20,402 nucleotides of DNA from a virus, in the IMG/VR virus record IMGVR_UViG_3300006928_000147, positions 1 through 20,402 of that record. One strand, given 5' to 3'. Below, piece after piece: positions 13,945 to 20,402 of this stretch. Each line of letters starts with the position of its first letter. Position 1 is the stretch's first letter. A program made the translations under genes and the position numbers. Under the pieces are notes generated by a model that did no database searches, had not been told where the DNA came from, and saw nothing but the letters and a program-made list of their open reading frames with translations.

Positions 13945-14451
13945 ATGACAGCAAAGGATAATTTTATACAAATATGCAACCTCACTACAAAAGTAATGGG
14001 GTTGAACAAAGGTGCTTTGTCTTTTAAAACTAGGGTTCAAGAGGTTCAAGTGCCTAGAATGGTGGCAAGTGTAATTGCTAGAATGGAAGAAGAAATCAGC
14101 CATACTATAATAGCAGACGTACTTAAACGTGATAGGACTTTAATCTATTATTATGAAAAGAACCATCAAGTGAATTATACTTGGGAAACGTACAGAAATG
14201 TGTTCAATAAAGTTTATATGGCATATAAAAAAATAGAAGAGGAGAAAGAAGTTTTTATTGATAAAAACCATATGAGAAAATATCTGTTAAGTAATGGGGT
14301 GAGTGAAAGTGAAAAACAAGAAGCTCAAATAATGGTTAAATCAGGTAAAGTAGGGGTTGTTATAAATACTTCTTATTTTGATTTTTCTAATCAGATAGAA
14401 AATATTAAATTTGCGCTGTCTAATTACAAATATGAAATAGAAATTTTATGA
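13945..14451 (+). CDS. DnaA domain IV-like DNA-binding protein
   Basis: In this 168-residue protein, residues about 30-76 look like the DNA-binding domain IV of DnaA: VPRMVASVIARMEEEISHTI followed by IADVLKRDRTLIYYYEKNH, which parallels the helix-turn-helix and the RDHTTV-type signature of DnaA. There is no AAA+ ATPase domain. It may bind origin sites or help recruit replication proteins. Residues 77-168 are a separate helical and beta region with no motif I recognise. The stop overlaps the next start as ATGA, coupling it to the putative initiator. Confidence 0.6.
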   Translation: MTAKDNFIQICNLTTKVMGLNKGALSFKTRVQEVQVPRMVASVIARMEEEISHTIIADVLKRDRTLIYYYEKNHQVNYTWETYRNVFNKVYMAYKKIEEEKEVFIDKNHMRKYLLSNGVSESEKQEAQIMVKSGKVGVVINTSYFDFSNQIENIKFALSNYKYEIEIL

Positions 14452-16126: not shown

Positions 16127-16483
16127 ATGAGAAAACCAATATATGCAAGCCAAGAACATAAGGTCTTAACTGAAGCATATATATTAATGATAAAAGAATT
16201 TATTAGAGATGTATCAAATGAAACAAGATGGGCTACTTTTTTAGAAGTTTTAGACGTGGTGATAGAGTATCATAATAATTATGGTAAAGGGGTTAGGGAA
16301 CACAATTATTGGGATTGGCTAATGATATTACCTATTAATCTTTCAGTAATGGCAAATGGGTATTTAGCAGCAATAGAAACTAAAAGAAACGCTACATTGG
16401 TGAGGTCGTATAGAGTTTTATTGAGTGAAATGGTAAAAGACGTAATAGATAAGATAGAAAAATTAGAACCAATAAGTGAATAA
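16127..16483 (+). CDS. Hypothetical helical protein
   Basis: The 118-residue, mostly helical product begins MRKPIYASQEHKVLTEAYIL and has aromatic-rich central segments (EHNYWDWLMILPINLSVMAN) and a C-terminal charged helix. Hydrophobic stretches are short and interrupted, so membrane insertion is uncertain. No family is recognised. It overlaps the sigma-like gene by eight bases, so the two are probably co-expressed and might act together. Confidence 0.55.
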   Translation: MRKPIYASQEHKVLTEAYILMIKEFIRDVSNETRWATFLEVLDVVIEYHNNYGKGVREHNYWDWLMILPINLSVMANGYLAAIETKRNATLVRSYRVLLSEMVKDVIDKIEKLEPISE

Positions 16484-17024
16484 AATCTATCTTGAAATAT
16501 CGAAATTGAGTAGTAAATTTAGAACCATGTGTTATGGACTAACAAAAGATAAAGAGGCTATTGATGACGCAGTACAGGAATTAATGTTGTATTTTATGCA
16601 AATGAACCCTTCTACCTTAAAAAACATTTGGGAGAAAGATGGTAAAAAAGGTATTATTAGTTATGGTGCTGTAGTTTTAAAAAGAGCTTTGACAAGCCCT
16701 AGAAGTCCATTTTATTATAAGTATTCTAAATATTATACAAATCTAGATAATATTAATTACATATCAGAAACAACTTTAAATTACCATAAAAGTATATACA
16801 ATATACCTAATGAACAAAATAATTATCAATGGGAACAGCTTGAGAAGATAGACAAAGTTTTAGATAGCCAAACTTGGTACGATAAGCAAATTTTTGAATT
16901 ATATTATTATGAAGGTAATACATTAGATTCACTTGCTGAGAAAACTAGAATAAGTAGGAATAGTTTGTTTACAACGATAGATAAGGTTAGGACAATAATA
17001 AAAGAAGAATTGTTAGATGAATAA
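16476..17024 (+). CDS. Sigma-70-like RNA polymerase factor
   Basis: The 182-residue protein has the two-domain layout of a small (ECF-sized) sigma factor. Residues about 8-75 resemble region 2 (KEAIDDAVQELMLYFMQMNP, then ISYGAVVLKRAL). Residues about 135-180 resemble region 4, with YDKQIFELYYYEGNTLDSLA leading into a helix-turn-helix SRNSLFTTIDKVRTIIKE. The linker (76-130) is Tyr/Asn-rich. It would direct host RNA polymerase to phage promoters; the four-copy two-part motif in this window is a natural candidate target. The start is GTG at 16476, overlapping the upstream gene. Region 2 is diverged, so an HTH regulator with only the sigma-4 fold is the main alternative. Confidence 0.65.
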   Translation: MNKIYLEISKLSSKFRTMCYGLTKDKEAIDDAVQELMLYFMQMNPSTLKNIWEKDGKKGIISYGAVVLKRALTSPRSPFYYKYSKYYTNLDNINYISETTLNYHKSIYNIPNEQNNYQWEQLEKIDKVLDSQTWYDKQIFELYYYEGNTLDSLAEKTRISRNSLFTTIDKVRTIIKEELLDE

Positions 17025-18271: not shown

Positions 18272-18844
18272 ATGAAGCTAAAAATCAATAAGATACAATC
18301 TAACGTATCAAACCCAAGAATAATTAAAGACAATAAATTCAAAAAACTTGTTCAAAGCATTAAAGGTTTTCCTGAAATGTTAGAACTCAGGCCGATTGTT
18401 ATAGATGAAAATAATATAATATTAGGGGGTAATATGAGATATAAGGCTTGTATTGAAGCAGGGTTAAAAGAAGTGCCTGTTAAGGTGGCTAAAGGTTTAA
18501 CAGTAGAACAAAAACAGGAATTTATTATTAAAGACAATGTAGGTTTTGGTGAATGGGATTGGGATATACTAGGCAACGAATGGCAAAATGATAAATTGAA
18601 TGATTGGGGTTTACCAGTATGGAACCCAACAGAAAGTATATCAAATGAAACAGATTACAGCATGAATACAGCTGATGAAAAATTAAATAGGTTTTTAGAC
18701 GCTAAGATAAAAAATATTACAATACCATTTGAAAGCCAAGAGTTTGCTAATATAGTTACAAAGCTAGAAGTTATAATGCATAAATATAATTGTAAAGACT
18801 ATAGGGGTTTGATATATAAAATTATAGAAAATGAAAAAGTTTAA
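18272..18844 (+). CDS. ParB/Srx-like domain protein
   Basis: The 190-residue protein has a ParB N-terminal-like domain at about residues 3-90: a leading NPRIIKDNKFKKLVQSIKGF, RPIVIDENNIILGGNMRYKA with the GGxxR nucleotide-binding motif (52-56), then EVPVKVAKGL. It is followed by EFIIKDNVGFGEWDWDILGN and a DWGLPVW segment, typical of phage ParB-like proteins that are often fused or linked to DNA methyltransferases. Here no methyltransferase domain follows; residues 120-190 are a short unrecognised tail. ParB-fold domains bind and hydrolyse CTP or act on DNA; the phage role is likely in DNA modification or packaging. It overlaps the dioxygenase gene by 14 bases. Confidence 0.8.
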   Translation: MKLKINKIQSNVSNPRIIKDNKFKKLVQSIKGFPEMLELRPIVIDENNIILGGNMRYKACIEAGLKEVPVKVAKGLTVEQKQEFIIKDNVGFGEWDWDILGNEWQNDKLNDWGLPVWNPTESISNETDYSMNTADEKLNRFLDAKIKNITIPFESQEFANIVTKLEVIMHKYNCKDYRGLIYKIIENEKV

Positions 18845-19667
18845 TTTAACTAAATATAAAGACAGTAGCAGCCTTTTAAACACAACACCTGCTAAAGACC
18901 ATTATGACAAGGTAATTAAAGAAGACACTTCTTTTTACTTAAATGGGGAATGTATTGGTATTTATGTAAATATAGCTAAAGAACTTTTAAGCTATGTGAG
19001 GGAATGTGTAAAAGACACTGATTATGTAGAAACATATAGAACACATAGGGCTTTACCAACGAAAAGTAGTGTTTTTGGGGCTTTGCCACGTATAGCATTA
19101 CGTAATGACTTTTGTAGGTTCAGCAATAAAACAATAGAAGAAAAAGAAAATTTTAATAAACTGTTTACGTTTCAAAAAACATTATGCGATATATATAAAA
19201 AACATTTGCCTGAATTATACGAATATGATTTAAAGAAAGCTAAAGAACTTGTAGATGATGACTATAGGTTAGTAGATACCCCATACACTACAGCTAACAT
19301 AAACGTTAATCATGCTATAAAATACCACTGTGATAGTGGTAATATAAAAGGCAGTTTTAGTAATGTATTAATTTTGAAAGAACATTGTACAGGTGGAGAA
19401 CTTGTTTTACCTGATTATAGAATAGCATTAGAACAGGCTGATGGTGCTTTATGTATATTTAAAGGGCAGCAGGAAATACATGGTGTTATGCCTATTAAAC
19501 CTTATAAAGAAGGTTTTTATAGGGCTAGTATTGTTTATTATACAATGGCACAACTGCAACATTGTTACCCCTACAAAGAAGAAGTAACACGCCTTAACCT
19601 TAAAAAAAGAGAACGTGCAATCAAAAGAAGTAATAATATAGACCCTAGAACAAATGGACAAAAGTAG
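18831..19667 (+). CDS. TET/JBP-like 2-oxoglutarate/Fe(II) dioxygenase
   Basis: The 278-residue protein carries the catalytic core of the TET/JBP group of nucleic-acid dioxygenases, which oxidise the methyl group of thymine or 5-methylcytosine. The iron ligands are seen as HCD (His166, Asp168) and His217 (QQEIHGVMP), with Arg231 (FYRASIVYY) as the likely 2-oxoglutarate anchor. GGELVLPDYRIAL (188-200) and the N-terminal SVFGALPRIALRNDFCRF (80-97) also fit the phage branch. The C-terminus is Lys/Arg-rich. It lies between ParB-like and small terminase genes, overlapping both by 14 bases, an association reported for phage TET/JBP genes. The target base cannot be read from sequence, and no cytosine methyltransferase is in the window. 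Confidence 0.8.
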   Translation: MKKFNLTKYKDSSSLLNTTPAKDHYDKVIKEDTSFYLNGECIGIYVNIAKELLSYVRECVKDTDYVETYRTHRALPTKSSVFGALPRIALRNDFCRFSNKTIEEKENFNKLFTFQKTLCDIYKKHLPELYEYDLKKAKELVDDDYRLVDTPYTTANINVNHAIKYHCDSGNIKGSFSNVLILKEHCTGGELVLPDYRIALEQADGALCIFKGQQEIHGVMPIKPYKEGFYRASIVYYTMAQLQHCYPYKEEVTRLNLKKRERAIKRSNNIDPRTNGQK

Positions 19668-20007
19668 ACACATAAAAAAGGAAGCTATGTTACAAGCATT
19701 AGAGAATAGCTTAGGTGTTGTAACAGTGGCTTGTAAACAAACAGGCACACCACGAAGCACATATTATAAATGGCTAAAGGAAGATGAAGAGTTTTCTAAG
19801 GCTGTAAAAGAAATAGAAAATATTGCATTAGATTTTGCAGAAAGCCAATTACATACACAAATGAAAGATGGTAATACATCAGCTACTATATTTTATCTAA
19901 AGACAAAAGGCAAGAAGCGTGGTTATATAGAAAGACAAGAGTTAGAATTAAATTCAGGTGATAACCCATTTAACGTAAGCGTAAATATTAATGGGGTTGA
20001 ACATTAA
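19654..20007 (+). CDS. Terminase small subunit
   Basis: The 117-residue protein matches phage small terminases with an N-terminal helix-turn-helix (about 8-46: LGVVTVACKQTGTPRSTYYK followed by WLKEDEEFSKAV) and a central helical oligomerisation segment (LDFAESQLHTQMKDGNTSAT then IFYLKTKGKKRGY). The AESQLHTQMKDGNTSATIFY and LKTKGKKRGY sequences are typical of the phBC6A51/Terminase small-like type. It recognises phage DNA and loads it onto the large subunit. It overlaps the dioxygenase gene by 14 bases and the large subunit gene by 17 bases. Confidence 0.85.
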   Translation: MDKSRHIKKEAMLQALENSLGVVTVACKQTGTPRSTYYKWLKEDEEFSKAVKEIENIALDFAESQLHTQMKDGNTSATIFYLKTKGKKRGYIERQELELNSGDNPFNVSVNINGVEH

Positions 20008-20402
20008 TTTTGAGTTTACTAAAACACAAGCACAGGCAATATCTTATTTGTTAGATAAAAACACAACAGAAGTATTGTTTGGTGGCGCAGCAGGTGGTGG
20101 TAAAAGTTGGGTGGGATGTGCTTGGTTATTATTACAATGTATGAAATATCCTAATACAAGATATTTAATGGGTAGGTCTAAACTTGATTCACTTAAAAAA
20201 ACTACACTTAATACATTCTTTGAAGTATGCAAAACTTATGGGCTCAAGTCAGGTGTGCATTATAATTTTAATGGGGGTTCAAATATTATAACCTTTGTAA
20301 ATGGAGCTGAAATATTACTTAAAGATTTATTCTTATATCCTTCTGATAAGAACTTTGACAACTTGGGTTCACTAGAATTAACTGGAGCATTCATTGATGA
20401 GT
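19991..20402 (+). CDS. Terminase large subunit, 5' part only
   Basis: The reading frame opens at ATG 19991 inside the end of the small subunit gene and is still open at the window edge, giving 137 residues. It begins MGLNINFEFTKTQAQAISYL, and LFGGAAGGGKSW (about 29-40) is a clear Walker A motif of the packaging ATPase. The window edge cuts just after LTGAFIDE, the start of a Walker B motif ending in the catalytic glutamate. The C-terminal nuclease domain lies outside. This is the motor that pumps DNA into the prohead through the portal; here the portal gene is about 11 kb upstream rather than adjacent. Confidence 0.88.
   Translation, partial: MGLNINFEFTKTQAQAISYLLDKNTTEVLFGGAAGGGKSWVGCAWLLLQCMKYPNTRYLMGRSKLDSLKKTTLNTFFEVCKTYGLKSGVHYNFNGGSNIITFVNGAEILLKDLFLYPSDKNFDNLGSLELTGAFIDE

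Follow-up and report, generated by a model that had tools for sequence, protein, structure and literature searches.

The locus studied here raises the question of why a phage carries a TET/JBP-type dioxygenase gene between a ParB-like gene and its terminase genes, and on which base the enzyme might act. The window, which is the whole stretch of DNA analysed, is a virus record of 20,402 bases. As shown in Table 1, the operon lies at its end. The overlaps of 14, 14 and 17 bases between the genes of ParB, TET, TerS and TerL, which had been claimed by the sequence-only reading, were confirmed with exact ORF coordinates. For the TerS-like protein, no Pfam family was matched above the cut-offs, and Sf6_terminase and HTH_Tnp_1_2 were found only below them, while the match of the window TerL to Pfam Terminase_3 was just under the cut-off. 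A scan for promoters and terminators gave no excess over shuffled sequences. Elsewhere in the window, a sigma-region-4-like regulator was seen upstream of the operon (16476-17024), and a protein at 13945-14451 weakly matched the C-terminal part of DnaA, both below their Pfam cut-offs.

Table 1. Coordinates of the genes, active-site codons and overlap at the ParB-TET-terminase locus of the window.
Feature	Position	Strand	Remarks
ParB-like protein, 190 aa	18272..18844	+	Pfam ParB_N, 7.7e-7
ParB/TET overlap, 14 bases	18831..18844	+	same in 50/56 contigs
TET/JBP-type Fe(II)/2OG DNA dioxygenase, 278 aa	18831..19667	+	Pfam Tet_JBP, 2.2e-16; TET-like fold
HxD iron-binding motif H166-C167-D168 of the dioxygenase	19326..19334	+	codons at 18831+3*(n-1)
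Distal iron-binding His H217 of the dioxygenase	19479..19481	+	invariant in relatives
2-oxoglutarate-binding Arg R231 of the dioxygenase	19521..19523	+	invariant in relatives
Terminase small subunit-like (TerS), downstream anchor of the slot	19654..20007	+	PHROG 309 at 1.3e-10
Terminase large subunit (TerL), N-terminal part	19991..20401	+	PHROG 979 at 6e-13; open at window end

The TerL fragment was closest to those of Flavobacterium phage 11b (62%) and Cellulophaga phage phi10:1 (59%), and many structural genes of the window were common to Nonlabens phage P12024L. The host is therefore probably a flavobacterium, judging from these sequence relationships, and marine flavobacteria are the probable hosts. 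At the DNA level, the comparison gave no match to any named phage.

The dioxygenase matched Tet_JBP (PF12851) with a score of 60 bits against a curated cut-off of 34.9 (E=2.2e-16). Its iron- and 2-oxoglutarate-binding residues H166, D168, H217 and R231 were invariant in 70 relatives and, after further scans, in all 126 aligned relatives, so the earlier claim of retained HxD, distal His and Arg holds. An AlphaFold2 model was obtained with a pLDDT of 79, in which residues 68-100 were poor. In the comparison of this model with the PDB, TET2, CMD1, NgTET1 and CcTET were matched at Z 16-18 and ALKBH3, FTO and AlkB at about 14 or less, so the predicted fold is nearer to TET-like structures than to other 2OG oxygenases. 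Furthermore, the family profile matched TET2 in the PDB at 9e-8. PHROG 6059, which was also matched by the dioxygenase, is labelled 'queuine tRNA-ribosyltransferase'. TET/JBP proteins bearing this label or 'DpdA-like' were seen in phrog_6059 and in the mycobacteriophage gp2 records (H10, H16, H23), and the labels look like propagated misannotation.

The substrate was considered next to the enzymes that accompany TET. Of 24 IMG/VR records with TET, 21 had no member of the C5 cytosine methyltransferase family, and neither had any of 13 further TET records, almost all of which contain TAGT. Since neither the window nor many of the records are complete, a C5 methyltransferase could lie outside them. 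A thymidylate-synthase-type hydroxymethylase was found in none of the 36 records searched. Phage TET enzymes that oxidise 5mC are usually accompanied by a C5 methyltransferase. Where this enzyme is missing, an enzyme seeking a C5-methyl group has thymine, or the 5mC of the host. Because a C5 cytosine methyltransferase is lacking in most related contigs, and the hydroxymethylase in all those searched, thymine would be the likelier substrate compared with 5mC, by a factor of roughly two or three according to judgement and not calculation. In addition, a reaction from thymine to 5hmU is preferred because the actinophage relatives adjoin a P-loop kinase and ADDT, which are read as thymidine hypermodification. 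The kinetoplastid JBP1 and JBP2 are thymine hydroxylases (PMC6449724, PMC12730594). They belong to the same Pfam family as the window enzyme, for which the same conversion of T to 5hmU in DNA is proposed; however, they are eukaryotic with other domains, and the likeness is one of family and proposed reaction and not of direct sequence alignment.

The other route, in which the enzyme oxidises 5mC to 5hmC, is less likely, although several observations speak for it; the 5mC would come from the host or from a C5 methyltransferase encoded beyond the window. The best fold matches were 5mC oxidases, with no thymine hydroxylase among the matches listed. A C5 methyltransferase was present in three of the 24 records (G001, G007 and G012), and the host could supply 5mC. 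Moreover, the window enzyme has Asn at HxD+3 (N171), the position of TET2 N1387. Against this route stands the absence of the methyltransferase from the 21 and 13 records mentioned above, and residue 171 is also Asn in the actinophage enzymes beside 5hmU-type kinase and ADDT genes. The HxD+3 residue, tried as a predictor of substrate, was uninformative: it was Asn in 122 of 126 relatives, and TET2 has Asn too. For thymine as the preferred substrate, the fate of the oxidised base is a further point. Among the contigs of the window clade, which are incomplete records, no TAGT, kinase3 or ADDT was found above the cut-off, and no finishing enzyme was recognised.

The arrangement of ParB and TET before the terminase has been published in actinophages, namely Gordonia phage CaiB (PMC9302106) and Rhodococcus phage Tonitrus (PMC11955845), and in the Tonitrus paper the operon is interpreted as one for thymidine hypermodification (PMC11955845). 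As in the window, a ParB-like gene is followed by a TET/JBP gene, overlapping or tightly packed, upstream of the terminase, and several of the ParBs are homologous to that of the window. In contrast, the actinophage operons carry the P-loop kinase (PF18751) and ADDT (PF18724)/pyrophosphorylase after TET, none of which was recognised in the window, itself a fragment, or in its clade, and the actinophage TETs are about 25-30% identical to the window TET. The window is a variant of this published arrangement. Nonlabens phage P12024L is likewise a Bacteroidota phage with an enzyme of the same dioxygenase superfamily, besides the structural genes already mentioned. However, its TET was 24% identical, had Asp at HxD+3, adjoined a TAGT and did not adjoin the terminase, and no ParB of the window type was detected in this phage. 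Systems of TET plus TAGT are reportedly treated in the phage TET literature by Burke et al. in 2021.

The position of the pair upstream of the terminase was highly regular. In all 56 IMG/VR contigs that cover the region, TET was immediately preceded by the ParB-like gene, with the exact 14-base overlap in 50. In a clustering of 18 contigs, TerL and TET were present in 18/18 and ParB in 17/18, and the tape measure and other structural genes were near-universal; an additional partner gene conserved with TET was sought in this clustering, which gave only TerL, TET, ParB and structural genes. A profile search of genome contigs with the close alignment found no relative, and the broader alignment gave 5.

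The sequence-only reading suggested that oxidised bases are installed around packaging and either mark the DNA for the terminase or protect virion DNA from host nucleases. The gene order favours a link to packaging, since the pair stood directly before TerS in nearly all relatives and overlaps TerS in the window. However, the terminases proved to be exchangeable under the same ParB-TET. At the cut-off used, the TerLs below the pair fell into two families and three singletons, and both the window type and the DUF5681 type were among the TerS found there. In L001, TET was 87% identical to that of the window, yet TerL had no match to the window TerL at this cut-off. Conversely, within a single TerL family, whose members were at least 78% identical to the query of the scan, the slot contained TET, TAGT, Mom, a methyltransferase or nothing. 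No Tet_JBP was found anywhere in 18 contigs (21-36 kb) with another cassette or none, while the three positive controls were found. Furthermore, no ParB or TET is annotated before the nearest named terminases, those of phages 11b and phi10:1, and the TETs of phages P12024L and Bolt007 do not adjoin an annotated terminase. For the terminase it thus seems to make no difference which modification its neighbour makes, or whether it makes one at all, and packaging is for this reason disfavoured as the cause of the gene order; the packaging mark, very improbable as an explanation, was rejected on account of terminase swapping. The earlier interpretation is supported in that a nucleic-acid dioxygenase of the TET/JBP type, its active site intact, forms one unit with the ParB and terminase genes; a special link to packaging or to recognition by the terminase is not supported.

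The interval between ParB and TerS is a slot for DNA-modification enzymes. A scan with the terminase only gave 79 new loci, of which 53 hold the region from ParB to TerS. With classes defined as BLAST clusters, each named after a Pfam or PHROGs search of one to three of its members, TET was found in 21 of these 53 slots (TAGT+TET in 13, TET in 6, kinase-like+TET in 2, the kinase reading of class X11 resting on a Walker motif) and TAGT without TET in 18 (TAGT in 15, another sugar transferase+TAGT in 2, TAGT+epimerase in 1). The TAGT naming is based on a set of 39 proteins, among them 31 diverse members of the cluster, in which 25 matched the Pfam family. The remaining slots contained Mom (3), an ABC-GNAT protein (3), X5 (3), an N6/N4 methyltransferase fused to ParB (2), another glycosyltransferase (1) or nothing (2). 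When ParB was used for a second scan, slots of the same kinds were recovered, together with a C5 methyltransferase between ParB and TerS in L173 and L174. Outside the two scans, Siphonobacter genomes and an Ignavibacteria bin had ParB-TAGT-TET or ParB-kinase-TET before the terminase, the kinase-TET type occurring in Siphonobacter sp. BAB-5405, and Bacteroides phage BS-TP3 had the order ParB-methyltransferase-TerS-TerL.

Several slot contents were observed in their own right. TAGT occupied the slot in L191, L210, L246, L249, L244 and L245 (records G039-G044), and in these whole contigs no TET/JBP, C5 methyltransferase or thymidylate-synthase-type enzyme was found beside it. An FkbM-type methyltransferase adjoined TET with an 8-base overlap in L062 (4630-5373); it also occurred after TET in L063, L064 and L065 and before TET in L193, L195 and L201, and it might O-methylate the hydroxymethyl base. 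In L182 (3483-4562), L224 and L282, a fusion of an ABC ATPase with a GNAT acetyltransferase (PHROG 11143) occupied the same slot as Mom and is possibly a new DNA-modification enzyme. X5, of 310 aa, was in the slot in L134 (3522-4454), L185, L218, L220 and L221. It had no match in Pfam or the PDB and is a candidate for a new DNA glycosyltransferase, its resemblance to T4 beta-glucosyltransferase being a reading by eye only. Moreover, small P-loop kinase-like proteins were located directly before TET (L223:984-1448, L257:1388-1864, L158:891-1379 and L285:4481-4999), which parallels the 5hmU kinase arrangement of actinophages.

The ParB-like protein consists of two parts. Its N-domain (aa 1-115) was common to the ParBs of the other cassettes, with median identities of 61-78% to that of the window for any cassette, while the C-terminal tail (aa 116-190) was similar only among the ParBs of TET-only slots; in all other cassette classes, the identity fell after about residue 120. 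The ParB scan selected for N-domain similarity, and the TerL-scan subset gave the same identity profile. In a dereplicated set of 97 ParBs, which includes 15 fused N6/N4 methyltransferases where the 'tail' is the enzyme, the nearest neighbour by tail was of the same cassette class in 86 (shuffle maximum 38), compared with 33 by N-domain (shuffle maximum 35). The tail agreement of the 15 fusions is trivial, and without them the tail count was 71 of 82. It is proposed that the tail docks the modification enzyme. Recombination breakpoints next to the cassette could also produce the association of tail and enzyme, with no physical docking involved.

In structure, the ParB model agreed with the CTP-bound ParB of M. 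xanthus (Z 13.1, rmsd 1.4 over 88 residues). The fold of this CTPase clamp is shared in the N-domain, and the GxxR-like and (D/E)N motifs are kept in the window protein. However, only the N-domain matched solved structures, and the positions of M. xanthus Q52 and E93 are Asn in the window protein (N14 and N54), so the residues of CTP hydrolysis are not kept. Q52 and E93 are needed for CTP hydrolysis, and their mutants are hydrolysis-defective (PMC9178275). A partition or plasmid-maintenance protein that stands beside the modification gene by coincidence would fit the ParB_N domain and the ParB CTPases as best structural matches. Such a protein is nevertheless very unlikely, considering that none of the annotated ORFs was recognised as a ParA, that the tail follows the class of the modification enzyme, that relatives are fused to an N6/N4 methyltransferase and that both hydrolysis positions are changed. 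Finally, a 2OG enzyme acting on a target other than a DNA base, whether tRNA or a protein such as capsid or terminase, is scarcely credible, since the label of PHROG 6059 and the place of AlkB and FTO next in the fold rank are opposed by the Pfam Tet_JBP match, the clear first rank of TET structures and the DNA-modifying families among the slot neighbours (TAGT, Mom, N6/N4 and C5 methyltransferases), which disfavour a protein hydroxylase and a tRNA enzyme alike.

We consider it fairly probable that the window holds a swappable cassette, the ParB tail with TET/JBP, between the ParB N-domain and the terminase, whose docked enzyme would make 5hmU against restriction. The ParB-like N-domain and the terminase genes would be the two anchors of exchange. 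The N-domain would hold the phage DNA, possibly with a nucleotide, and the tail would dock the dioxygenase. Once the DNA has been replicated, this enzyme may hydroxylate the C5-methyl group of a pyrimidine, with thymine as the most likely base and 5-hydroxymethyluracil as its product. The base may then stay as hydroxymethyl or be finished by an enzyme not recognised here, while relatives would finish it with a glycosyltransferase, a kinase or another transferase. The purpose would be escape from host restriction. Protection of the phage DNA is the most plausible purpose, and the system is most likely not a packaging signal but an armour that protects against host restriction and can be exchanged. 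A wider reading, held tentatively, is that of a general phage platform, in which the ParB-like N-domain would serve TET, glycosyltransferase, kinase, Mom and methyltransferases through swapped enzyme-specific tails, the window being the case of 5hmU made by TET/JBP alone. No published account was found of an exchange slot in which one ParB N-domain is combined with class-specific tails; the main subscription papers were outside the search, and priority is not certain.

If this is true, the small 'ParB-like' gene often seen near phage DNA-modification genes would be a targeting subunit, and thereby have a testable job. Furthermore, modification genes would gather before the terminase through an exchange slot between conserved anchors, and not through the biology of packaging. 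In addition, a large set of uncultivated Bacteroidota phages would be predicted to carry 5hmU or glycosylated 5hmU.
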